NCBI GenBank assembly: GCA_002473085.1
Contig: DKTP01000082.1
Coordinates: 1-41,360, forward strand
Reading direction: 5' to 3'
Origin: Anaerolineales bacterium UBA7227
GTDB lineage: Bacteria; Chloroflexota; Anaerolineae; Anaerolineales; Villigracilaceae
DNA length: 41,360 nucleotides
Below the pieces are notes generated by a model. It worked only from the letters and a program-made list of their open reading frames with translations. It was not told where the DNA came from and made no database searches. This document shows, in pieces, positions 16,452-30,049 of the stretch (position 1 is its first letter; each line of letters opens with the position of its first letter). A program made the translations under genes and the position numbers.

Positions 16452-17183
16452 GTGCCGGCTCGGAATCTTTCCCGCCTCATCCTGATCCCGTTTGGAATAG
16501 CCCTGCTTCTGGCAGGGCTGTTTTTCGACGGAGGACAAGCCTCCTCCGTTCGGCAGGCCGCGCCGACTCCCACTCCCGACCGCCTCGCCCAACCCATTTT
16601 GCCAGCCATTCCATCCCAGGCTGATTACGGCGCCCAGGTCTACTGGCTCTCATGCCTGCCCTGTCACGGCGACCGAGGCCAGGGACTGACCGACGAATTC
16701 CGCGCCGCATACCCGCCGGAAGACCGCAACTGCTGGATCTCTGGCTGTCATGGCGAGCGTCCCTACGAGCATGGCTTCCGGCTGCCGCGTGAAATCCCCG
16801 CCGTGATTGGGCCGGGCGCTTTGCAGAACTTCCCGAACGCCGCGGCCCTGTACGCCTACACGCGCGCGGCGATGCCGTTTTGGAAGCCAGGCAGCCTGAC
16901 CGAAGAGGAGACCTGGCGGGTGACGGCTTTTCTTTTGCGGCAAAACGGACTGTGGACCGGGGTCGGGGAATTGGACGCCGCGGCCGCCGCCGAAATCCCC
17001 ATCCTGCGCGCGACGCCGCCCCCGACTCCGCTCCCCGCGCCGGGCCGGGTCCCGGTCGAGACGGGAGACGGGGGCGGCCGCTGGGCGCTGCCCGCCGCCG
17101 GCGCGTTGACCCTCCTCCTGATCCTGTTCCTCATCCTGCGGAGAAAACGCGCCTCGTCAAACCTGGACGAGTCTCTTGAATAA
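16452..17183 (+). CDS. Membrane-anchored c-type cytochrome
   Basis: A 243-residue exported cytochrome c. Residues 9-30 form an N-terminal signal or anchor helix, followed by a PTPTP linker. CLPCH (68-72) is a standard heme c site. CWISGCH (94-100) has the rarer CX4CH spacing, known from cytochrome c3, and could bind a second heme. AAMPFW (139-144) offers the Met that usually forms the sixth ligand in class I cytochromes. After a Pro-rich stretch, a C-terminal helix (about 214-234) ending in RRKR anchors it with the heme domain outside. The GTG start is supported by AGGA nine bases upstream. It is probably cotranscribed with the peptide transporter, four bases after it, which is an unexpected pairing; its redox partners are unknown. 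Confidence 0.8.
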   Translation: MPARNLSRLILIPFGIALLLAGLFFDGGQASSVRQAAPTPTPDRLAQPILPAIPSQADYGAQVYWLSCLPCHGDRGQGLTDEFRAAYPPEDRNCWISGCHGERPYEHGFRLPREIPAVIGPGALQNFPNAAALYAYTRAAMPFWKPGSLTEEETWRVTAFLLRQNGLWTGVGELDAAAAAEIPILRATPPPTPLPAPGRVPVETGDGGGRWALPAAGALTLLLILFLILRRKRASSNLDESLE

Positions 17184-17367: not shown

Positions 17368-17449
17368 GTTTCGGGAAGAGTATTCTGTTGAGCGTTTTGT
17401 AAGGCACACAACCATCTAATCCCACATTTCTCTGTAGGAGGAGAAAACC

Positions 17450-19993
17450 ATGTCTAAAAATCGTTTGATGCTTGCGTTCAGCGTCCTGATGATCGCTGCC
17501 ATGCTGTTCACCGCGTGCGCTCCCAAGCCGACCGAGGCGCCGACGCAGGCCCCCGCCCCCACAAAACCTGCGGAACAGCCCACTGCCGTTGCGCCCACGG
17601 AGGAGCCCACTCCTGAACCCTCCACCCGTGTCGGCGGCTGGCTCGATGAGATTGTCATGTCTGTCGTCTCTGGCGACTCGGCGGTTACCCAGCTCAAGGC
17701 TGGCGCCATTGACATCTATGCCAACGGCCGCTCCTCTGCCGACCTGCCAGCGATTAAAGAAGCGGGCTTGAGCTACTCCAGCTCAAACGGGTTGTATTAC
17801 GACATGATTTACAACCCCGGAGTTTGCTCTGACCCGAAAATGCTGAATCCTTTCTCCAACCGCAAAATCCGCGAAGCCACCAACTGGCTCTACGACCGCA
17901 ACTACATCAACCAGGAAGTTTACGCCGGCGGCGGTTTGGTGAAATTCTTCGCCATCCAGACCAACGGCCCCGATTATGCCGAGTTGGCAGATGTTGCCCG
18001 CGCGCTTGAAGCCAAGTATGCCTACAATTTCGACAAGGCCAAAGAAGTCATCAAGACCGAAATGGAAGGCATGGGCGCCACCCTCGGAGCCGATGGCAAA
18101 TGGGAATATGAAGGCGCTCCCGTCACCATCATCCTCCTGACCCGTCCCGACAGCGACGGCACCCGCAAACCGATCGGCGATTACGTAGCCGCCCAGTTTG
18201 AAGCCGTCGGCTTCAAAGTCGACCACCAATACAAGAACGCTGCCGAAGCCTCCCCGCTTTGGATTCAGAGCGAACCGACCGATTGCTTGTGGCACTCTTA
18301 CACCGCCGCCTGGTCCTCAACCGCCATCAGCCGCGATGAAAAGAACATGTTCCAGCAGATGTACCTGAACACCAGCGTCCAGGGCATGCCGGTCTTCCTC
18401 GCCAACGTCTCCGATCCTGAATTCCAGAAAGTCGGCGACGACCTGAACAACGGCAAATTCACGACCCTTGCCGAGCGCCACGACATGTTCGCCAAGGCCA
18501 TGGAACTGAGCCTGCAAGATTCGCTGCAGGTCTTCCTGATTGACGGCAAGAACTACACCCCCTACAACACCAACGTTCAGGTCACCTCCGACCTGGCGGC
18601 CGGGGTGGAAAGCGCCCAGCTGTACCCCTTCACCCTGCGCTTCAAGGGCCAGGAAGGCGGCCAGCTGAAATGGGCCACCCAGAACATGTTTGCCGATCCG
18701 TGGAACCAGATTGGCGGCAGCAACTGGACCTTTGACCAGGGCGCCCAGCGCGCCACCGCCAGCGCCGGCTTCATGGCCGACCCCTACACCGGTCTCGCCT
18801 GGCCTCTGCGCGCTGAAAAAGCGGAAATCACCGTCCTCGACAGCCTGCCCCCCACCAACAAGACCCTCGATTGGGTGACGCTCTCGACCGCGCCTGAAAT
18901 TCAGGTCCCGGCGGATGCCTGGGCGGATTGGGACGCCAAGACCCAGACCTTCATCCCGGCTGGAGAAGGCGTGACCTCTCAAATGAAATCGGTGGTCTAC
19001 TACCCGGCTGATCTGTACAGCACGGTCAAATGGCACGACGGCAGCAACTTCAGCGCCGCCGACGTGGTTATGGCCCTGATCCTCACCTTCGACCGCGCCA
19101 AGCCCGATAGCGCCATTTACGACGAAGCCGCGGTGCCGGTCTTCGAATCCTTCATGTCCTACTTCAAGGGCGTCAAGATCGTTTCGACCGAACCGCTGGT
19201 CGTCGAATATTACGCCGACCTGACCCAGCCTGACGCCGAAAATATGGCGACCTCGCTCTGGCCGAACTACGGCTTTGGCGAAGCCAGTTGGGACGTCATC
19301 GCGCTGGGCAACCTGGCCGAAGCGGCTGGCGAACTGGCTTACTCCTCGGATAAGTCCGGCGCCAAGGAAGTTGAATGGACCAGCTTTGTGGGCGGCCCCA
19401 GCCTGGAGATCCTGAAGAAACACCTCGACCAGGCTGAAACCGACAAGTACGTCCCCTACGCCCCCACCATGAGCCAGTACGTCACTGCCGACGAAGCGGC
19501 TGCCCGCTACGCCAACCTGCAGAAATGGTACGCCGACCACGGTCACTTCATCGTTGGCACCGGTCCGTACTACCTGGACAAGGCGTTCCTGACCGAGAAG
19601 ACCCTGACCCTCAAGCGCTACGAAGGGTATCCCGACCTGGCTGAACGCTGGTCCGGCTTTGGCGAACCCATGCTGGCAGAGGCTGAGTTGGACGGCGCTG
19701 GTCAGGTTAAGATCGGCGAAGAAGCCGCCTTTGACGTCTACATCACCTACAACGACCAGCCCTATCCGCAGGCCGACATCAAGCAGGTTAAGTTCCTGCT
19801 CTACAACGCCAAGAACGAAGTCGTTCTGGTTGGCGAAGCTCAGGCAGTTGCCGACGGACAGTATCAGGTGATTCTACCGGCGGATGTCACCGCCAAACTT
19901 GAAGCTGGCTCCAACAAACTTGAAGTTGCGGTCATTCTGATCCCTGTGAGCGTTCCGACCTTCACCAGCATTGACTTTGTGACTGCCCCGTAA
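17450..19993 (+). CDS. Circularly permuted family 5 solute-binding lipoprotein, system 2
   Basis: An 847-residue lipoprotein (lipobox FTAC, C23; Pro/Thr-rich linker 24-60) belonging to the peptide-type ABC binding proteins, but with its motifs rotated. Residues 65-89 (LDEIVMSVV ... LKAGAIDIY), RKIREATNWLYDR (138-150) and the closing VFLIDGKNYTPYN (361-373) are normally the second half of such proteins. The normal first half comes afterwards: LKWATQNMFADPWN (406-419), STVKWHDGSNFSAADVV (524-540) and IVGTGPYYLDKAF (701-713). SBP1 and SBP3 nearby have the usual order. Residues about 745-847 add a beta-rich, Ig-like tail. The start is supported by GGAGGAG and the signal peptide. It heads a complete transporter operon. 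The ligand is unknown. Confidence 0.85.
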   Translation: MSKNRLMLAFSVLMIAAMLFTACAPKPTEAPTQAPAPTKPAEQPTAVAPTEEPTPEPSTRVGGWLDEIVMSVVSGDSAVTQLKAGAIDIYANGRSSADLPAIKEAGLSYSSSNGLYYDMIYNPGVCSDPKMLNPFSNRKIREATNWLYDRNYINQEVYAGGGLVKFFAIQTNGPDYAELADVARALEAKYAYNFDKAKEVIKTEMEGMGATLGADGKWEYEGAPVTIILLTRPDSDGTRKPIGDYVAAQFEAVGFKVDHQYKNAAEASPLWIQSEPTDCLWHSYTAAWSSTAISRDEKNMFQQMYLNTSVQGMPVFLANVSDPEFQKVGDDLNNGKFTTLAERHDMFAKAMELSLQDSLQVFLIDGKNYTPYNTNVQVTSDLAAGVESAQLYPFTLRFKGQEGGQLKWATQNMFADPWNQIGGSNWTFDQGAQRATASAGFMADPYTGLAWPLRAEKAEITVLDSLPPTNKTLDWVTLSTAPEIQVPADAWADWDAKTQTFIPAGEGVTSQMKSVVYYPADLYSTVKWHDGSNFSAADVVMALILTFDRAKPDSAIYDEAAVPVFESFMSYFKGVKIVSTEPLVVEYYADLTQPDAENMATSLWPNYGFGEASWDVIALGNLAEAAGELAYSSDKSGAKEVEWTSFVGGPSLEILKKHLDQAETDKYVPYAPTMSQYVTADEAAARYANLQKWYADHGHFIVGTGPYYLDKAFLTEKTLTLKRYEGYPDLAERWSGFGEPMLAEAELDGAGQVKIGEEAAFDVYITYNDQPYPQADIKQVKFLLYNAKNEVVLVGEAQAVADGQYQVILPADVTAKLEAGSNKLEVAVILIPVSVPTFTSIDFVTAP

Positions 19994-20078: not shown

Positions 20079-21200
20079 ATGACCACAGCCAATCAGTCAG
20101 ACTTCGCGCTTGTCAAAAAGAAATCCGCCAGCGGGACTTTCGCCCGTGTGGCAAAATATACAATCGTTCGGCTGCTTACCCTCTTTGTCACCATCGTAAT
20201 TGGCATCTATCTTACGATTATGATCGCGAACATGGGCGGCCATGTTGACACCATCATGCGCAACGAGATCCGTGAGCGAGTTACGCAAATGGTGGTGAAC
20301 AATCCCGCCAGCCGAAATATGAGCAACGAAGAGAAGAAGACCCAGATTGAAGAGCGGATTCGGCTGGAAGAAAAGCGCTTGAATTTGGACCAGCCGCTCG
20401 TTTTGCGAACGCTCAAATACTTAAAAAACGCGCTGCAATTGAATCTGGGGCGCGCCCTCCATATGACCAGCGACAGCGGTTCACGGCAGGTGCGCCTGAT
20501 CATCCTGGAGAGGCTGCCAGCCACCCTGCTCTTGATGGGGACCTCGAACCTGATTCTGTTTTTCGTCAGCCTGTTTCTGGCGCTTTCTCTTTCGCGCAAA
20601 TACGGCAGCTTTTGGGATAAGTTAGTGATTGGACTTTCGCCCACCTCGGCCGCGCCGCCCTGGTTCTATGGCATCTTCTTTATCCTTATCTTTGCCGCGC
20701 TTTTAAAGTGGCTGCCTTTTGGCGGCATGGTAGACGCGCCGCCGCCCGATAACCCTCTCGATTACACGCTGAGCCTGCTTAAACATATGATTCTGCCGGC
20801 GTCGTCGTTGATTTTCAGCGCCTTCTTCATCAGTATTTATAACTGGCGCACGTTTTTTCTGATCTATTCCAGCGAAGATTATGTCGAAATGGCGAAAGCC
20901 AAGGGCCTGGTCGCCCGCGATATCGAGCGCCGGTACATCCTGCGCCCCACGCTGCCCACCATTGTCACCAGTTTCGCGCTGATGTTGATCGGCCTGTGGA
21001 CCGGAGCCATCGTTACCGAAACCGTCTTTCTCTGGCCCGGACTGGGGCGCACTTCGTTCCAGGCGATTGGCTTGTACGACATCCCGGTCATCGTGGGAAC
21101 CACCATTATTTACGCTTACCTGTTAGCGATGACCGTCTTTTTGCTGGACTTCGTTTACGCCCTGGTTGACCCCAGAGTCAAAATCGGCGGAGGCAACTAA
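20079..21200 (+). CDS. ABC transporter permease (DppB-like), system 2
   Basis: A 373-residue inner-membrane permease. A 25-residue cytoplasmic tail precedes the first helix (about 27-50). The extracytoplasmic region (about 50-140) is longer and highly charged, including NMSNEEKKTQIEERIRLEEK, which looks helical, before the family motif NLDQPLVLRTLKYL. The EAA loop is YVEMAKAKGLVARDIERRYILRPTLP, followed by TGAIVTETVFLWPGLGRT. GAGGAAAG supports the start. It should form the channel together with the next gene and take solute from the permuted lipoprotein. Confidence 0.92.
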   Translation: MTTANQSDFALVKKKSASGTFARVAKYTIVRLLTLFVTIVIGIYLTIMIANMGGHVDTIMRNEIRERVTQMVVNNPASRNMSNEEKKTQIEERIRLEEKRLNLDQPLVLRTLKYLKNALQLNLGRALHMTSDSGSRQVRLIILERLPATLLLMGTSNLILFFVSLFLALSLSRKYGSFWDKLVIGLSPTSAAPPWFYGIFFILIFAALLKWLPFGGMVDAPPPDNPLDYTLSLLKHMILPASSLIFSAFFISIYNWRTFFLIYSSEDYVEMAKAKGLVARDIERRYILRPTLPTIVTSFALMLIGLWTGAIVTETVFLWPGLGRTSFQAIGLYDIPVIVGTTIIYAYLLAMTVFLLDFVYALVDPRVKIGGGN

Positions 21201-21203
21201 CCC

Positions 21204-22547
21204 ATGAATGCATTGAAGAGTTCTTTCCGCGAGATTTTACGCTATCCTTCCGCAGTGGCCGGCTTGGCGGTCATTTTTTCGCTGACCCTTGTGGCCGCTT
21301 ACGCCATGATCACCATTCCCTACGCCGAGGCCGTTCGTTTATGGCGCGGCGGCGAAGATGTTTGGTATAAAAATCCGAAGTTCGCGGCCCCTGCCTGGAC
21401 CAATGTGTTTTCCAGGGTCAAATATCCGGTTTCCTTTGCGGTCAGCAGCGCCGATGGCGGCATCGCCAAAGTGACGACGCCAGGCGAAAAGGGAACCAGC
21501 CGGATCGAGTTTACCCATTCCTTCGATTACTCTTACGATACCTTTCCGCAGGAGATGTTGCTGTACTTCACCGCAAAATATTCGGAAAAATTGCCGTTTG
21601 TGTCGATTTATCTGATAACCCCTGACGACCGAAAAGTCCGCATTTCCGATTTTGGAGTCAGCCAAAAGACCACCTTCCGTTTTTCCCAGGATGAGAAATT
21701 GCAACGCCGATTGAAAGGGCAGGAGGTGATGACCGGCTTGTTTGCCCGGCCTGATTCCGACCCGGCGGCGCCGCTCAAAGGCCGGTATCAGCTGCTCGTC
21801 GAAGCGGTGACCTTCGAGGAAGATTCCGACCTGAATTTTGAATTCGTCTTTCATGGTCAGGTCTATGGCCTGGCCGGGACGGACCAGGCCCGCCGTGACC
21901 TGATGGTGCCCCTGTTGTGGGGCGCGCCGATCGCGCTCGCGTTCGGCCTGCTGGCCGCGCTGGGCACCTCGGTTCTGACGATGATCATCGCCGCAGTCGG
22001 CGCCTGGTATGGCGGCTGGGTGGACGAACTCATCCAGCGCATTACCGAAATCAACCTGGTGCTGCCCTTCCTGAACATCCTCATCATGGTCGGAACTTTT
22101 TACTCGCGTAGCATCTGGGTGATCTTGGGCGTAACCATCTTGCTCAGCATTTTCACCGGCAGCATCAAAAGTTACCGCGCCATTTTCATGCAAGTGAAAG
22201 AGTCGACCTACATCGAAGCCGCGCGCTCCTACGGCGCAAGCAACACCCGCTTGATCTTCCTTTACCTCATTCCCCGCATGATCCCGCTGCTCATTCCCGG
22301 CCTGGTTTCCTCGGTGCCTGCCTTCGTCTTTCTCGAAACGACCCTTGCGGTCCTGGGCTTGGGAGATCCGGTGCTGCCGACTTGGGGCAAGATCATTAAC
22401 GATGCCTGGGGCAACGGCGCGCTTTACAAAGGCTATTACTATTGGATCCTGGAGCCGGCAGTCTTGTTGATGATCACCGGCCTCGGTTTTGCCATGCTCG
22501 GCTTTGCATTGGATCGAATTTTCAATCCACGATTGAGAAACATATAA
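21204..22547 (+). CDS. ABC transporter permease (DppC-like) with large extracytoplasmic domain, system 2
   Basis: A 447-residue permease, about 100 residues longer than usual. After the first helix (about 17-38) comes an extracytoplasmic domain of about 190 residues (40-230) rich in predicted beta strands, with an NVFSRVKYPVSFAVSS segment and a C-terminal FEFVFHGQVYGLAGTDQARRD stretch matching the usual 'LGTD..GRD' approach to helix 2. The EAA loop is YIEAARSYGASNTRLIFLYLIPR. The insert has no recognised family; facing the solute-binding protein, it may dock it. GGAGG supports the start, three bases after the partner permease. Confidence 0.9.
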   Translation: MNALKSSFREILRYPSAVAGLAVIFSLTLVAAYAMITIPYAEAVRLWRGGEDVWYKNPKFAAPAWTNVFSRVKYPVSFAVSSADGGIAKVTTPGEKGTSRIEFTHSFDYSYDTFPQEMLLYFTAKYSEKLPFVSIYLITPDDRKVRISDFGVSQKTTFRFSQDEKLQRRLKGQEVMTGLFARPDSDPAAPLKGRYQLLVEAVTFEEDSDLNFEFVFHGQVYGLAGTDQARRDLMVPLLWGAPIALAFGLLAALGTSVLTMIIAAVGAWYGGWVDELIQRITEINLVLPFLNILIMVGTFYSRSIWVILGVTILLSIFTGSIKSYRAIFMQVKESTYIEAARSYGASNTRLIFLYLIPRMIPLLIPGLVSSVPAFVFLETTLAVLGLGDPVLPTWGKIINDAWGNGALYKGYYYWILEPAVLLMITGLGFAMLGFALDRIFNPRLRNI

Positions 22548-22551
22548 CGCC

Positions 22552-23511
22552 ATGAACAACGATAAACTTCTACGCATCGAAAAATTGGTGTTACATTTCA
22601 ACACCACACAGGGGCCGGTTCAGGCCGTGGACGGCGTTGATTTCAGCCTGGATACCAATCGCGCAGTGGTCATCCTGGGCGAATCGGGCTGTGGAAAAAG
22701 CTCGCTGGCCAAAGCCATCCTGCGCCTTTTGCCGCGAAACGCGGGAGCCTATTCCGGTCATATCTACCTCGAAGGAAAGGATATCATGGCCCTCCCCGAG
22801 GAAGAGTTCCGGCAGAACGTTCGCTGGGCGGCCATCTCGATCGTGCCGCAAGCCGCCATGAACGCGCTGAACCCGGTGATCCGGGTTGGAGAGCAGGTGG
22901 CGGAACCGGCCATCGTCCACCTCGGCGTGGACAAAGCCGGCGCGCTGTCTTTGGTGCAGAAAATGTTCCAGCACGTCGGCGTTCCCGAAGACTTCATCAA
23001 CCGCTATCCCTTCGAACTCAGCGGCGGGATGCGCCAGCGCGTCGCCATCGCCATGGCGCTGGTCACGTCTCCCAACCTGATCATCCTGGACGAGCCGACT
23101 TCCGCGCTGGATGTGCTGACCCAGGCGAACATCTTCAACGTCCTCAAGCGCCTCAAAAAGGAACTGGGCATCAGCTTCATCTTGATCACACACGACATTG
23201 CCACCTCCAGCGAACTGGCCGACGACGTCGCCATTATGTACGCCGGCCAGATCGTGGAAGTGAGCGACGCGCACCGGTTTTTTGAAGAGCCGCTGCATCC
23301 CTACTCTAAAAAGTTGATGGCCAGCGTGCCGAGGCTGCGCGGAGATACGGAGCCGGAGTTTATCACCGGCCGGCCGCCCAGCCTGATCAACCCTCCCACT
23401 GGCTGCCGGTTTGCGGATCGCTGCCCGAGCCGATTTGACAAGTGCGTGGAGGAACCGCCGGTATTTGAGATCGAAGGCCGCAAGGTTAAATGCTGGTTGT
23501 ATGAAAGTTAG
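22552..23511 (+). CDS. Peptide-family ABC transporter ATPase (DppD-like), system 2
   Basis: A 319-residue ATPase. Motifs are Walker [10 protein letters not shown], a variant Q loop VPQAAMNALNPV (instead of FQDP), signature [15 protein letters not shown], Walker B IILDEPTSALD and H-loop ITHD. The C-terminal extension has the family cysteines (CRFADRCPSRFDKC ... CW). The start lies four bases after the permease stop without a clear ribosome binding site, so translation is probably coupled. It pairs with the next ATPase. Confidence 0.92.
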   Translation: MNNDKLLRIEKLVLHFNTTQGPVQAVDGVDFSLDTNRAVVILGESGCGKSSLAKAILRLLPRNAGAYSGHIYLEGKDIMALPEEEFRQNVRWAAISIVPQAAMNALNPVIRVGEQVAEPAIVHLGVDKAGALSLVQKMFQHVGVPEDFINRYPFELSGGMRQRVAIAMALVTSPNLIILDEPTSALDVLTQANIFNVLKRLKKELGISFILITHDIATSSELADDVAIMYAGQIVEVSDAHRFFEEPLHPYSKKLMASVPRLRGDTEPEFITGRPPSLINPPTGCRFADRCPSRFDKCVEEPPVFEIEGRKVKCWLYES

Positions 23512-23523
23512 GAGAACACAGTC

Positions 23524-24543
23524 ATGGATGTAACTTCCCCGGTTGAAAAGATCGAGAATGAAGCGGGACGAAAGGCCGTCCTGTCCATTGACGATCTTCA
23601 TGTCTGGTTTGAACTCAAGCGGTTTGGCTTTGGGCATGCGGGCTACGTGAAGGCGGTGGACGGCGTCACCTTTAACGTTTTGCAGGGCGAAACGATCGCC
23701 GTGGTGGGCGAGAGCGGCTGCGGAAAATCCAGCCTGATGAAGACGATCCTTGCCTTGTACAAGCCGACGAAAGGCAGCATCATCTTTAACGATAAAAACC
23801 TGTCGGAATTGGACGGCAAGGGCCTGCATTGGTACCACTCTCATGTTGGATACATCCAGCAGGACCCCTACGGCGCGCTGCCTCCATTTATGACCGTTCG
23901 ACGAATTCTGGAGGAACCTCTCCTGGTCGGCGGCGTGAAGGATAAAGAGGAGCGTCGGCAGCGTATCCACAAGGCCATGGATGAGGTAAAACTTACCCCG
24001 GTGGATGATTTCCTGGAAAAATATCCTCACATGTTGAGCGGCGGACAGCAGCAGCGCGTAGTCATCGCCCGCGCCATGATTATGGAACCGAAGTTCCTGG
24101 TGGCGGATGAGCCGGTCTCGATGCTCGACGCCTCCGTGCGCGTGGAGATCTTGAAACTCCTTCGCGCCTTGCAGGAAGAACACCACCTCTCCGTCATCTA
24201 CATTACGCACGACCTGTCCACGGTCAGCTATTTTTCGGAGCGCATCTTCGTCATGTACGCCGGCAATCTGGTCGAAAAGGCCAAAGTGCGCCAGGCGCTC
24301 GATAACCCCCTGCACCCGTATACGCAGGCCCTGTTGACCGGCACCTCCGAACCGGACGCGAAAAACGCGGAGACGTTCAAGGAACTTCCCCCGGGCGAAC
24401 CGCCCAGCCTGGTCAACCCTCCAACCGGCTGCCGCTTCCATCCGCGTTGCTCGAAGATCATAAAAGGCCTCTGCGAAGTGGAGGAACCCCCCGATTTCGA
24501 GCCGGAACCCGGCCACCTGGTGGCCTGCTGGCTGTATAAATAA
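23524..24543 (+). CDS. Peptide-family ABC transporter ATPase (DppF-like), system 2
   Basis: A 339-residue ATPase. Motifs are Walker [11 protein letters not shown] loop IQQDPYGALPPFM (a variant of [10 protein letters not shown]), signature LSGGQQQRVVIARAM, Walker B LVADEPVSMLDAS and H-loop ITHD. The C-terminal cysteines are CRFHPRCSKIIKGLC and VACW. It carries an N-terminal extension of about 18 residues before the first strand. GGAGAA precedes the ATG. The Q-loop variants in both system 2 ATPases fit a transporter branch distinct from systems 1 and 3. Confidence 0.92.
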   Translation: MDVTSPVEKIENEAGRKAVLSIDDLHVWFELKRFGFGHAGYVKAVDGVTFNVLQGETIAVVGESGCGKSSLMKTILALYKPTKGSIIFNDKNLSELDGKGLHWYHSHVGYIQQDPYGALPPFMTVRRILEEPLLVGGVKDKEERRQRIHKAMDEVKLTPVDDFLEKYPHMLSGGQQQRVVIARAMIMEPKFLVADEPVSMLDASVRVEILKLLRALQEEHHLSVIYITHDLSTVSYFSERIFVMYAGNLVEKAKVRQALDNPLHPYTQALLTGTSEPDAKNAETFKELPPGEPPSLVNPPTGCRFHPRCSKIIKGLCEVEEPPDFEPEPGHLVACWLYK

Positions 24544-24859: not shown

Positions 24860-25909
24860 GTGACCAGCGAAACCAAACCGCCCCTGCTCGAGGTCAGGAA
24901 CCTCAAAACCTATTTCTTCACGGAAGACGGCGTCATCAAGGCTGTGGACGGCGTGGACTTCTACGTCCGCCCGGGCGAAGTGCTTGGACTGGTGGGCGAA
25001 TCGGGCTGCGGAAAAAGCGTCACCTCCCTCTCCATCATGCGGTTGATTGGAACGCCCGGCAAGATCGTGGACGGCGAAATGCTCTTCGAAGGCAGGGACC
25101 TGGTCAAAGCTTCCGAAGCAGAGATGATGAAGATCCGCGGCAACCGCATCTCCATGATCTTCCAGCAACCCCAGTCCGCGCTCAACCCGGTCTTTCGCGC
25201 GGGCGACCAGATCTCGGAAGTCCTTCAGATCCACCAGGGACTCGACAAAAAAAACCGCCGGCAGCGGGCCGTCGAAATGCTCCGCATGGTGGGCATCCCC
25301 GAACCCGAGCGCCGCGCCGAAGCGTTTCCGCATGAACTTTCGGGCGGCATGGCCCAGCGCGTCATGATCGCCATGGCCCTGGCCTGCGCTCCCGACCTGC
25401 TCATCGCCGACGAACCCACCACCGCCCTCGACGTCACCATCCAGGCGCAGATCCTCGACCTGATGCGCGACCTGCGCGCCAAGATCGGCTCGGCGGTCAT
25501 CCTCATCACCCACGACCTGGGCGTGATCGCCGAAATGGCCGACCGCGTCGCCGTAATGTACGCCGGCGAGATCGTGGAAGAATCCCCGGTGGCGCAACTG
25601 TTCGACTCGCCGCATCATCCCTACACCATCGGCTTGATCGGCTCGGTGCCGGTCCTCGGGAAAGTGCGCGACCGACTGGACGTCATCCCCGGCTCGGTGC
25701 CAAACCTCGTCAACCTGCCGCCCGGCTGCCGCTTCGCCCCGCGCTGCCAGGCCCGCATAGACTACAACCTCTCCATCTGCACGGAAAAACGCCCTCCGCT
25801 GGCGGACATCGCCGAAGGCCACAAAGCCCGCTGCTGGCTGTACACCGACGCAGAGAACCACTCCGCCCCGCTGAAGAGCGGACAACCCTATGTCACGAAG
25901 CGAGAGTAG
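24860..25909 (+). CDS. Peptide-family ABC transporter ATPase (DppD-like), system 3
   Basis: A 349-residue ATPase. Motifs are Walker [11 protein letters not shown] loop [12 protein letters not shown], signature [15 protein letters not shown], Walker [12 protein letters not shown] and H-loop ITHD. The C-terminal extension has [18 protein letters not shown] and CW, plus a tail of about 20 residues. The start is a GTG with GGGAG eight bases upstream; there is no better in-frame ATG. It opens system 3, 56 bases after the small membrane protein, and probably continues the same transcript. Confidence 0.92.
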
Positions 25910-25913
25910 CGTC

Positions 25914-26906
<993 letters not shown>

Positions 26907-26937
26907 ACGCCGCTTGTTGGAAAGTTGATAATGAGAT

Positions 26938-26970
26938 AGGATTCGGGTCACGCCCGAATCCTGTTTTTTT
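26938..26970 (+). terminator. Intrinsic terminator after system 3 ATPases
   Basis: A perfect 10-bp stem, AGGATTCGGG/CCCGAATCCT, with a five-base loop is followed by seven T residues (26964-26970). It lies 31 bases after the ATPase stop and ends right at the ribosome binding site (AGGAG) of SBP3. It should end most transcripts of the ABC block, or attenuate entry into SBP3. Confidence 0.9.
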
Positions 26971-26981
26971 AGGAGACCGCC

Positions 26982-28934
26982 ATGCCCGTGTCGAACCGCC
27001 CGCTTCATGCCATCTTTGCGATTTTCATCCTGCTTTCACTGACGTTATCCGCCTGCCAGCCGGGGCAGGGCGGGACTTCCGCGCCGCCTCCGGCCCCCGC
27101 CGCCACGCAGACTCCCTCTCCCGCGTACACGCCCACCCCGCTCCCGCCGCGGACGCTGAACGTCTGCCTGGGCGCGGCGCCCAACACGTTGTACCCGCTC
27201 GGAGGTCCGAACGCCGCGGCGCGCAGCGTCCTCGAAGCCGTCTACGATGGGCCGTTCGACGCGCTCGGCTACGATTACAAGCCGGTCATCCTCGAAAAAA
27301 TGCCCAACCTGGAAGACGGCAGCGTGCAGCTGGCATCCGTCTCGGTGACGAACGGAAACGAAGTGGCGGACGCGGACGGGATCTTGACGATCCTCAAAGC
27401 GGGGACGCGCGTCCGCCCGGCCGGATGCCGGAGCGACGAGTGCGCGGTCGTCTTCGACGGGATCAACCCGCTCGCCATGGACGCCATGACCGTCATGTTC
27501 AAACTGAAGTCCGGCCTGCTCTGGTCCGACGGGACGCCGGTCACCGCCGAAGATTCCGCCTATGCCTTTACCCTCGCGAAAAACGAAGAGACGCCCGGCT
27601 CGAAATTCATCTTTGACCGCACGCAGTCTTACGAGGCCGTAGACGATCAGACGCTCCAATGGTGGGGCAAACCCGGTTTCATTGACCCGACCTATTTCGT
27701 CAACTTCTGGACGCCTCTGCCAAAACATGTGTGGGGACAACTTTCCGCGTCCGAGTTGCAAAAATCGGAACTCTCCTCGCGCGCCCCGATGGGATACGGC
27801 CCCTACGTCGTCAAAGAATGGAACGACGACAGCCTGCGGCTGACGAAGAATCCCTACTACTTCCGCGCCGCCGAGGGACTGCCCAAATTCGACGAACTGA
27901 TCTTCCGCATTGTCCCCAACGCGGAAGCGGCCATGGCCAACCTCATCAACGGGCGCTGCGACCTGATCGACTCCACCGTCAATCTCGACGCGCAAACCTC
28001 CCTGTTGAAAGAGATGGACCGCACCGGCCAGGCGCGGGCCTACTTTGGGCAGACGCCCACCCTCGAATGGCTGGCGCTGGGGATTTCCCCGGCCTCCTAC
28101 GACGACGGCGTCCAGGCCAAAGACCGTCCCGACTTCTTCGCCGACCCGCGCCTGCGGCAGGCGATCGCCTACTGTCTCGACCGCCAGGCGATTGTGAGCA
28201 ATGTCCTGTACGGCCTGGTGGACGTGCCAGACTCTTTTGCGGCCTCGGCCAGCCCGCTGCACGCCGCGTCCCTGCAAGCGTATCCATTCGACCCCGAAAA
28301 GGGCAAGCAACTCCTGAACAACATGGGCTGGCGCGACCACGACAACAACCCCGCCACGCCGCGACACGCCCAGGGCGTGGACCGCGTCGTCAACGGGACC
28401 GAACTGAACCTGACCTACATCGCAACATCGGCCGCGCAGCGGCGCCAGGTGGCCGACATCCTTTCCCAGTCCCTGATCGGATGCGGGATCGGCGTGAACG
28501 TCGTCCATCTTTCGCAGTTGGAATTCTACGCCGAGGGCCCGGCCGGCCCGCTCTTTGGGCGCAACTTTGACCTGGCTGAATTTGCCATGCACACGCCCTC
28601 CGTCCTGCCTGCCTGCGAGCGGTTCGCCTCCTTCGAGATTCCCTCGGCTGCCAACCATTGGGTCGGGACGAACGTCAGCGGGTACAAGAATCCCGAATAC
28701 GACGCGGCCTGCTCCTCGGCGCGTCAATCCCTGCCGAGCGAGGCCTCTCACGCCGAAAACTACCGCCTCGCCCAGGCCATCTTCGTCCAGGACCTGCCCG
28801 CCATCCCGCTCTTCTTCCGCATCGAGACGGCCGCGGCGCGCTTCGACTTCTGCAACTTCGCGCTCGATCCCACCGCTGCCAGCGATCTCTACAACATCGA
28901 AGCTTTCGATTACGGCGACGCCTGCCTGCCCTAA
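26982..28934 (+). CDS. Solute-binding lipoprotein, family 5, system 3
   Basis: A 650-residue lipoprotein with lipobox LSAC (C25) and a Pro/Thr-rich linker. The normal family order is kept: LNVCLGAAPNTLYPL, then KSGLLWSDGTPVTAEDSAYAF, then GYGPYVVKEW, then FDELIFRIVPNAEAAMANL, then RLRQAIAYCLDRQAIV, then the C-terminal lobe ending LPAIPLFFRIE. It has an unusual number of cysteines for a binding protein (for instance CRSDEC, GRCDL, CGI, ACERF, AACSS, FCNF), which could form disulfides outside the cell. AGGAGA precedes the ATG. No permease genes are linked; it likely delivers to another permease pair. Terminators lie on both sides, so it may be expressed by read-through or an unseen promoter. 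Confidence 0.9.
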   Translation: MPVSNRPLHAIFAIFILLSLTLSACQPGQGGTSAPPPAPAATQTPSPAYTPTPLPPRTLNVCLGAAPNTLYPLGGPNAAARSVLEAVYDGPFDALGYDYKPVILEKMPNLEDGSVQLASVSVTNGNEVADADGILTILKAGTRVRPAGCRSDECAVVFDGINPLAMDAMTVMFKLKSGLLWSDGTPVTAEDSAYAFTLAKNEETPGSKFIFDRTQSYEAVDDQTLQWWGKPGFIDPTYFVNFWTPLPKHVWGQLSASELQKSELSSRAPMGYGPYVVKEWNDDSLRLTKNPYYFRAAEGLPKFDELIFRIVPNAEAAMANLINGRCDLIDSTVNLDAQTSLLKEMDRTGQARAYFGQTPTLEWLALGISPASYDDGVQAKDRPDFFADPRLRQAIAYCLDRQAIVSNVLYGLVDVPDSFAASASPLHAASLQAYPFDPEKGKQLLNNMGWRDHDNNPATPRHAQGVDRVVNGTELNLTYIATSAAQRRQVADILSQSLIGCGIGVNVVHLSQLEFYAEGPAGPLFGRNFDLAEFAMHTPSVLPACERFASFEIPSAANHWVGTNVSGYKNPEYDAACSSARQSLPSEASHAENYRLAQAIFVQDLPAIPLFFRIETAAARFDFCNFALDPTAASDLYNIEAFDYGDACLP

Positions 28935-28941
28935 CAAAATT

Positions 28942-28976
28942 AGAAACCTGGTTTCGCGAGGAATCAGGTTTCTTTT
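28942..28976 (+). terminator. Intrinsic terminator after SBP3
   Basis: AGAAACCTG (28942-28950) pairs perfectly with CAGGTTTCT (28965-28973) around a 14-base loop; a short T-run follows the stem. It begins eight bases after the SBP3 stop and closes the ABC transporter block. Confidence 0.75.
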
Positions 28977-28978
28977 GC

Positions 28979-28991
28979 TATAATCGCCCCA
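28979..28991 (+). promoter_or_regulatory. -10 box placing transcription start at the response regulator ATG
   Basis: A perfect TATAAT at 28979-28984 lies six bases before the ATG at 28991, so transcription should begin on or next to the A of the start codon and give a leaderless mRNA. No Shine-Dalgarno sequence exists. The layout TATnAT-N6-ATG is the same as that of the histidine kinase gene at 2412. Confidence 0.6.
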
Positions 28992-30049
28992 TGTCATCTC
29001 CCCGCATCCTCCTCGTGGATGACCAGCGCGACATCCTGCGCCTGCTCCACGCCACCCTCGATACGCTGGGACATAAGCTCGAGATCTACGAAGCGCCCTC
29101 CGGCGAGGAAGCCCTGCTCGAAGCCGCGCGCCATCGTTTCGACCTGCTGGTCTCCGATTACAAATTGCCCGGCATCACCGGCGTGGAATTGATGAAGAAG
29201 GTGCGCGTCAAAAACCCCGACGTGCGCTCCATTCTCATCACCGCCATGACCGACAAAAAGACGCGCGACGAGATGCTGGCGGCCGGGGCCATGGCCATGT
29301 TCGACAAGCCCATTCCGCTCGCCGATTTCCTCGACGTGGTGGAGCGCGCCCTCGGCCTCAAACGCACCATCCTGCCGCCCGAAGACGAAAAAGTGGAAGC
29401 CAGCCGCGAGACCATCGCGGACCTGCTCACCAAACTCCGCAGGAAAACGAACGCGCAGGCGGTCTACCTGCTCAGCGACCGCGGGCGCATCCTCGAGCGC
29501 GCTGGCGACCTGTACGACTCCAGCATGGAAGTCTCCCTGCTCTCGGCAATCATGGCGATCTTCGCGGCCGGGCAGAAAGTCTCGCGCTTCATCCACCAGG
29601 GAGGCCCCAACCATTATCACGTCTTCAGCGGCGGCGACCACGACCTGATCCTCATCCCCGTCGACGCGCTCTACGGCCTGCTGGTGGCCGGGGAGGGACT
29701 GACCGCCCCGGACCACATCCTCAAAAACGTAAACGCCATGCTGGACGTCCGCGAGGCGATGGAGAAGGCGCTCCGCTCGATGGGCATGCCCACCGCCCCG
29801 GCGGAGGAGACGCCGCGTCCGCTGACGCCCATCTCGGCCGCGGTCAACGTCCCCACGCAGGACATCGAAAACCTCTTCGCCCAGAAGAAGCAAAAGATCA
29901 AGGCGCGCGACGCCGACGCCTTCTGGGACGAAGCCGTGGAAAAACACGGCAACCCGCCGCTTCACCCCGACGTCATTTCCTACGAACAGGCCAAACAACT
30001 CGGCATCGCGCCCAGGGGACGGACCAAGCCGCTCGTTTCCAAACCGTGA
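28991..30049 (+). CDS. Response regulator with roadblock/LC7-like domain
   Basis: A 352-residue cytoplasmic protein. Residues 1-125 form a CheY-like receiver with the acidic pair D10-D11, phosphoacceptor D56 (LLVSDYKLPG), a Thr at 84 and K106 (FDKPIP). Residues about 137-240 resemble a roadblock/LC7 domain (QAVYLLSDRGRILERAGDL ... LILIPVDALYGLLV), the fold found in MglB-type regulators of small GTPases. The rest is a low-complexity linker and a short conserved-looking C-terminus (DAFWDEAVEKHGNPPLHPD). No DNA-binding domain is present, so output should be through protein contacts, perhaps with a Ras-like GTPase encoded elsewhere. The ATG at 28991 is chosen; open frame further upstream overlaps SBP3. 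Confidence 0.85.
   Translation: MSSPRILLVDDQRDILRLLHATLDTLGHKLEIYEAPSGEEALLEAARHRFDLLVSDYKLPGITGVELMKKVRVKNPDVRSILITAMTDKKTRDEMLAAGAMAMFDKPIPLADFLDVVERALGLKRTILPPEDEKVEASRETIADLLTKLRRKTNAQAVYLLSDRGRILERAGDLYDSSMEVSLLSAIMAIFAAGQKVSRFIHQGGPNHYHVFSGGDHDLILIPVDALYGLLVAGEGLTAPDHILKNVNAMLDVREAMEKALRSMGMPTAPAEETPRPLTPISAAVNVPTQDIENLFAQKKQKIKARDADAFWDEAVEKHGNPPLHPDVISYEQAKQLGIAPRGRTKPLVSKP

Follow-up and report, generated by a model that had tools for sequence, protein, structure and literature searches.

Solute-binding proteins of family 5 are very common in prokaryotes, and the described systems closest to the one studied here are the cluster C proteins, namely the OppA of Thermococcus kodakarensis (7fi3) and the DppA/OppA/NikZ-type proteins (e.g. 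1dpp, 1xoc and 4oeu). Natural permutation of a binding protein has already been described for cluster B, in the circularly permuted glucose-binding protein TpMglB-2 (Tp0684) of Treponema pallidum, termed 'Type Ic / Cluster Bc', whose authors also raised a link between permutation and tethering (PMC4990184). For DNA methyltransferases, permutation by duplication has been described with documented intermediates (PMC3320104). Here we describe cpSBP, a family 5 solute-binding lipoprotein of 847 residues encoded on the forward strand at 17450..19993 of a 41,360-nucleotide stretch from Anaerolineales bacterium UBA7227 (contig DKTP01000082.1; the whole stretch is hereafter called the window). As judged from its open reading frame (ORF), profile matches and structure prediction, the mature protein is very probably a naturally occurring permutant in which the cluster C fold has been circularly re-cut, serving as the lipid-anchored part of an Opp-type importer. 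The first-pass annotation of the window knew of no permutation in this family, and open-licence PubMed Central (PMC) papers likewise gave us no account of circular permutation in binding proteins of cluster C or of archaea, a search that leaves subscription journals and preprints largely uncovered.

The two halves of cpSBP stand in swapped order

The reading frame of cpSBP starts with ATG and is uninterrupted over 17450-19993, and upon re-reading the sequence we found both these coordinates and all motif positions given in the first-pass annotation to be right: LKAGAID at residues 82-88, RKIREATNWLYDR at 138-150, LKWATQ at 406-411, WHDGSNFSAADVV at 528-540, GTGPYYL at 703-709 and LKRYEGYPDL at 721-730. 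The segments, all on the forward strand, thus come as C1-C2-N1-G and not in the ordinary N-to-C order of SBP_bac_5. Residues 61-399 (17630..18646) hold segments C1 and C2, corresponding to the C-terminal half of ordinary family members, and residues 400-405 (18647..18664) join the ancestral C-terminus to the ancestral N-terminus. Residues 404-738 (18659..19663) hold segments N1 and G, i.e. the N-terminal half of ordinary members, with WHDG at 528 and GTGPY at 703, and residues 740-847 (19667..19990) form an additional predicted beta-sandwich domain, here called segment Ig.

The Pfam profile SBP_bac_5 matched cpSBP with 85.7 bits against a cutoff of 32.4, split over two stretches, the better of which placed residues 65-291 on profile positions 148-349 of 368. 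With the NCBIfam equivalogs Opp4A and Opp5A, cpSBP stayed below the cutoffs (33.7 of 650 and 25.8 of 600 bits). The sole solved structure matched by the single cpSBP sequence at an expectation value (E) of 0.001 or lower was 7fi3, and the match was directly observed to be swapped: positions 68-304 of 7fi3 were covered by residues 483-725, and positions 395-571 by residues 125-293. A profile of 55 sequences left the swap unchanged at an E of 3e-38, its two stretches being 480-733 on 63-306 (independent E, i-E, 1.9e-16) and 75-294 on 330-569 (i-E 6e-21). When cpSBP was de-permuted in silico, by setting residues 400-742 ahead of 61-399, a single collinear stretch resulted (84-577 on 68-572 of 7fi3), scoring 88.4 bits compared with 79.9 bits for the native order.

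The predicted structure gave the same picture, with residues 57-401 matching the second half through the C-terminus of DppA/OppA/NikZ-type proteins (e.g. 1dpp, 1xoc and 4oeu) and residues 404-738 matching the first half of 7fi3. The two halves are complementary, each is present once, and together they cover 7fi3 nearly end to end, at 19-21% identity in the structural alignments. For the whole-chain model, all 50 among the matches listed were family 5-type by title, although such lists exclude no other fold and absence from them shows nothing. From the model we infer that the two halves would pack into one two-lobed body. The circular permutation put forward in the first-pass annotation was thereby borne out by sequence, by comparison of predicted with solved structures and, as described below, by homologues, including its proposal that new ends were made between the GTGPY segment and LDEIV and that the old ends were joined near residue 400. 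Its placing of the end of the C-terminal half near residue 373 has to be corrected, as this half runs to about residue 400 in the predicted structure, and while its layout of permuted halves stood, it had overlooked that residues 740-847 are a separate domain.

Conservation of the swapped order in bacteria

A protein search with cpSBP gave at least 1823 proteins at E ≤ 1e-3, with 7996 candidates scored and 120 listed. Using segment profiles, we found the order C1-C2-N1-G-Ig in 116 of the 119 listed homologues besides the query; two more (P0055 and P0122) also have the permuted order, with an insert in N1, and the last (P0081) is a fragment without C1 that fits it. The survey of homologues that had been suggested to check the order thus gave 118 of 119 listed close homologues as permuted and one compatible fragment. 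On 152 reversed sequences, the segment profiles gave one match at i-E ≤ 0.01. A check of motif order by regular expressions on the same 119 homologues, which 84 passed and in which 35 had at least one pattern missing, was replaced by the segment profiles, and we put the 35 failures down to strict patterns together with one fragment. The insert in P0055 and P0122 is about 110 residues long and helical by look, and locus L056 shows the same split pattern.

A scan of species genomes gave 34 cpSBP loci, mostly titled Anaerolineae, Anaerolineales or Chloroflexi, the others including four Trueperaceae (Deinococcota), one Bacillota and one Dehalococcoidia metagenome-assembled genome. Counting ORFs of at least 350 residues scoring above 60 bits in these loci and in those from 201 Chloroflexota genomes (L037 falling below the length cut), we obtained 53, of which 46 were permuted with all segments and the extra domain, four lacked a match for that domain, one had N1 split and two were contig-end fragments fitting the permuted order (L034 and L040). 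The window's own genome holds one copy. Plasmids searched with P0001 or P0154 gave no match, and viral contigs searched with P0154 gave no relative.

This conservation across a large family bears on two other explanations of the swapped order. Many of the sequences come from metagenome assemblies, so that an artefact of assembly or gene calling might be considered, but the frame is uninterrupted, the same order recurs in independent Anaerolineae, Trueperaceae and Bacillota assemblies, and archaeal forms cut at other places lie on contigs of approximately 1.8-2.1 Mb (P0172, P0174, P0176, P0186 and P0203), so we regard such an artefact as having a negligible probability. Alternatively, cpSBP could have come from two separate binding proteins, both damaged, that were fused as truncated tandem copies without any single complete fold. 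The low direct similarity of cpSBP to its neighbours would agree with this, and permutation by duplication would have to pass through partly duplicated states (PMC3320104). The halves are, however, complementary and cover one solved fold with each part once, 54 homologues aligned with cpSBP at 63-79% identity share its whole length, and separate trees of the two halves both recover the same ordinary clade, nested within the same clade of 12 rows (see below), which together make a damaged fusion very improbable.

The transporter operon and its long OppC

The ATG of cpSBP is preceded, at a distance of six bases, by the ribosome-binding-site-like AGGAGGAG (17436..17443, forward strand; read from the sequence, with a putative function). 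The protein begins with a signal peptide (17450..17518), identified by eye, having a lipobox-like end at Cys23, which we take to be a lipobox from its likeness to the familiar pattern; Cys23 is invariant across the 55 aligned sequences. Residues 24 to about 60 (17519..17629) make up a low-complexity tether rich in Pro, Thr and Glu, with predicted local distance difference test scores (pLDDT) below 50 over most of its length.

An Opp/Dpp-type gene set of two permease and two ATPase genes lies beside cpSBP at 20079-24543, likewise on the forward strand: an OppB-type permease of 373 residues (20079..21200; a conserved neighbour), a long OppC-type permease of 447 residues (21204..22547), and two ATPases with oligo_HPY tails, OppD-type (22552..23511) and OppF-type (23524..24543), the D and F being named from gene order. 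In the long OppC, about 190 residues separate the first and second membrane segments by eye, compared with about 70 in OppC1 of the same window (347 residues in total), and five solved OppC/DppC-type chains align to it only from residue 218 or 224 onward.

The linkage of cpSBP to this long OppC was directly observed. In the 34 loci, the genes OppB, long OppC, OppD and OppF come after cpSBP to the extent that the contig covers them, except in L039; L035 shows no operon genes, its contig ending 244 bases past the match. The OppC has 447-489 residues where complete, and 569, 589, 595 and 823 in four cases, counted as stop-to-stop frames. Scanning the 201 Chloroflexota genomes with profile A1 gave 58 with some match, of which 21, including the window's own, were substantial; the other 37 were mostly of signal-peptide size, with a few being short matches of the C-terminal half to other binding proteins. 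A search of the 201 genomes that used the membrane portion of long OppC as query showed its gene to be present in 21 of 21 cpSBP genomes, the match beginning 1.75-2.54 kb past the end of the cpSBP match.

Four of the 201 genomes hold single frames of 902-980 residues fusing OppB2-like and long OppC2-like permeases (L100:5265-8198, L101:7270-9975, L102:5688-8393 and L103:5635-8574), with no binding protein of the cpSBP family in the fetched stretch. Downstream in the window, a second oligo_HPY-type ATPase pair and an ordinary binding protein, SBP3, are found at 24860-28934 with no adjoining permease gene in the window, and a relative of SBP3 is present in 15 of the 34 related loci. This ATPase pair and SBP3 may share the OppB/long-OppC pair of cpSBP, which would place a permuted and an ordinary binding protein on one channel. 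Right after SBP3 there is a frame with a response-regulator receiver domain (28658-30049; 76.7 bits), whose listed start overlaps SBP3, so that the true start is probably later. Two transporter operons of the window are separated by a cytochrome c-like gene (16452-17183; 29.7 bits with Cytochrome_CBB3), of which L009 also has a relative.

Several cyclic orders among archaeal relatives

With the 7fi3 stretch as query we obtained 44 proteins, and with nine archaeal-type relatives 146, of which 120 were listed, leading to 152 distinct proteins (P0123-P0274) whose order was determined with segment profiles. The ordinary order N1-G-C1-C2 was found in 34 of these, the named ones being from Thermococcus, Thermococcaceae and Pyrococcus. 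The order C1-C2-N1-G as in cpSBP, type I, was the most frequent (91 of 152), with Geoglobus, Thermococcus, Pyrococcus, Pyrobaculum, Thermofilum, Bathyarchaeota, Thaumarchaeota, Baldrarchaeia and Caldilineaceae among the named sources. Type II, G-C1-C2-N1, was found in 13 (named Thermococcus and Palaeococcus; P0207 being cut short in N1), and type III, C2-N1-G-C1, in five, three of which have the start of C2 at their end; nine proteins were incomplete.

Plain BLASTP without profiles confirmed these cyclic orders at the level of sequence. Type II P0184 matched type III P0198 with 78.1% identity (398-754 on 33-397) and 75.0% (40-391 on 395-746), type I P0194 matched type II P0184 with 75.6% (27-680 on 85-741) and 60.4% (696-741 on 33-80), and type I P0149 matched the ordinary P0204 with 45.2% (17-430 on 359-774) and 36.9% (426-727 on 26-352). 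In a re-ordered alignment, P0184 and P0198 were 75.9% identical at 718 positions, yet their orders differ. The match to Pfam, as an independent model, started with profile position 110 at residue 53 in P0184 and with position 147 at residue 32 in P0149, while profile positions 28-351 ran along residues 106-571 of the ordinary P0123.

Most of the archaeal relatives that we read have a signal-peptide-like start in whichever order, P0199 being without one and perhaps incomplete, and many end in a membrane-anchor-like stretch. The type III proteins P0198, P0199 and P0203 end instead in another, common C-terminal region, for which P0198 gave a weak, below-cutoff S_layer_C match. In P0194 of Thermococcus sp. 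21S7, a hydrophobic stretch and then a kinase domain (Pkinase, 152 bits) come after the type I permuted binding protein, an arrangement resembling a sensor kinase derived from a transport protein. The type 1 periplasmic-binding Pfam domains PF01094 and PF13458 are also present in P0246, which has 1092 residues and is a permuted member of family 5.

With regard to how the orders arose, the fusion and trimming of tandem duplicates proposed in the first-pass annotation is plausible, but no partly duplicated intermediate was seen among the 152 relatives. That finding would suit fission and re-fusion of half-genes, as would the two C2 pieces of the type III proteins P0187, P0199 and P0221, which overlap by at most one profile position. 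No free-standing half-genes are known here, although no search aimed at them was made, and we consider this route less likely than not, though far from negligible, as the source of an otherwise real permutation.

A quick first tree of 84 re-ordered sequences required 6 changes for the four orders (minimum 3; shuffled mean 20.2), with types II and III intermixed and with P0221, which has a further cut inside C2, in the ordinary clade. When ten ordinary binding proteins were used to root the tree, the Thermococcales clade of ordinary order came out deep within type I, the branches leading to it having support values of 100, 81, 100 and 97. Joining this clade to the outgroup was rejected by the approximately unbiased (AU) test for the whole length (p 0.00115) and for the C-terminal half alone (p 0.0008), tests weakened by long outgroup branches, by quick searches without bootstrap and by the tested clade having been named after the tree was seen. 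The N-terminal half alone gave no rejection (p 0.523), the tree constrained to this joining being better by 0.82 log units. From both half-trees two long outgroup rows (P0002 and L064) were left out, and since P0149, P0169 and P0198 are placed differently by the two halves, exchange between paralogues is possible.

These trees bear on whether the Thermococcus OppA (7fi3) has retained the ancestral order, from which the permuted ones derive. The ordinary order of the other cluster C proteins compared and the result for the N-terminal half agree with retention, the whole-length and C-terminal results speak against it, and we judge its chances to be evenly balanced. Likewise, given the long branches of the outgroup and the post hoc naming of the group, we consider a return of Thermococcus OppA to the ordinary order from permuted ancestors, as the tree would have it, about as likely as not. 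Five cuts can be listed, i.e. the ordinary one, that of type I between GTGPY and C1, that of type II before GTGPY and two inside the last segment (P0187 and P0221). The wider proposal that the ring was cut at five or more places, repeatedly and partly recently, and that Thermococcus OppA was permuted back to the original order, we regard as tentative, with a chance slightly short of even.

Discussion

The chain of cpSBP very probably begins in the loop after the GTGPY hairpin and passes through the ancestral C-terminal half. Near residue 400 a short join leads on to the half that was ancestrally N-terminal, which is followed by the added beta-sandwich domain. Anchored by its lipid, cpSBP would capture oligopeptides outside the membrane, its two lobes presumably closing on the ligand, and then dock on the OppB/long-OppC pair, whereupon ATP-driven import would follow. 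Tether and added domain would both sit at the new ends, close to what was ancestrally lobe I, and together these could re-aim cpSBP towards a permease whose outer domain is enlarged, a suggestion made because of the constant company of cpSBP and the enlarged OppC. That the ring tolerates relocated ends is indicated by other branches being cut at other points. By analogy, the substrate is most likely an oligopeptide, since an endogenous pentapeptide is bound in 7fi3, the solved relative closest to cpSBP.

Several observations weigh against this interpretation. Many cluster C proteins use an acidic residue for the peptide amino terminus, and since such a residue is not evident at the YTAAW motif of cpSBP, the substrate is uncertain. 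The folds of cpSBP are predictions, and the whole-chain Foldseek template modelling (TM) scores to 7fi3 were low (0.34/0.39), as is expected because a sequential aligner sees one half only. The other two binding proteins of the window, SBP1 and SBP3, have diverged too far from cpSBP to display the permutation directly: in the comparison with SBP1 that had been suggested, as with SBP3, the swapped pieces did appear in BLASTP, but unconvincingly, at E 0.046-3.5, which is too weak for the proposed dot plot to have settled the order. Half-by-half local alignments with the two gave scores mostly inside the range of shuffled targets, except for residues 135-256 against SBP1 430-544 (score 65, shuffle maximum 61), and the segment profiles of the permuted family gave no match to SBP1 or SBP3. 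As to the operon, L039 has OppB and OppC with no OppD or OppF relative downstream, and genome G106 (L104) has a long-OppC operon with no detectable cpSBP beside it; an archaeal-profile search of G106 found no cpSBP either, although an empty answer of that kind shows nothing.

Since annotation profiles assume one order, they record permuted family 5 proteins as half-matches. Having four cyclic orders, between some of which divergence is only about 24%, the family offers a natural series for studying the origin of circular permutation and also its cost in folding, ligand closure and permease docking, and the linkage to long OppC suggests a possible, testable reason for the moved ends, namely a re-aimed tether. 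The family further supplies natural permutants for sensor design, and looks like a natural experiment on where a protein may begin and end.

Among known systems, 7fi3, a cluster C protein with a bound pentapeptide, is the best match in both sequence and fold to both halves of cpSBP, with which it shares the enlarged N-terminal half and the Pfam family, whereas its halves stand in the ordinary order and the profile built for the added C-terminal domain does not match it. The DppA/OppA/NikZ-type proteins (1dpp, 1xoc and 4oeu) have SBP_bac_5 in common with cpSBP, which differs from them in the order of its halves, its larger N-terminal half and its extra C-terminal domain. TpMglB-2 is likewise a natural circular permutation of a tethered ATP-binding cassette (ABC) solute-binding protein but has the type I/cluster B sugar-binding fold with another cut and a poorly conserved permuted part, while both halves of cpSBP are homologous by sequence (PMC4990184). 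The likeness between the two is one of topology change only. DNA methyltransferases occur in several cyclic orders. Together with saposin and swaposin, they resemble cpSBP in showing circular permutation within one homologous family (PMC3320104). They are unrelated proteins, however; pairs in the cpSBP family that are about 76% identical differ in order, and unlike in the methyltransferases and saposins, each re-cut in this family had to leave the chain with an export signal at its beginning.
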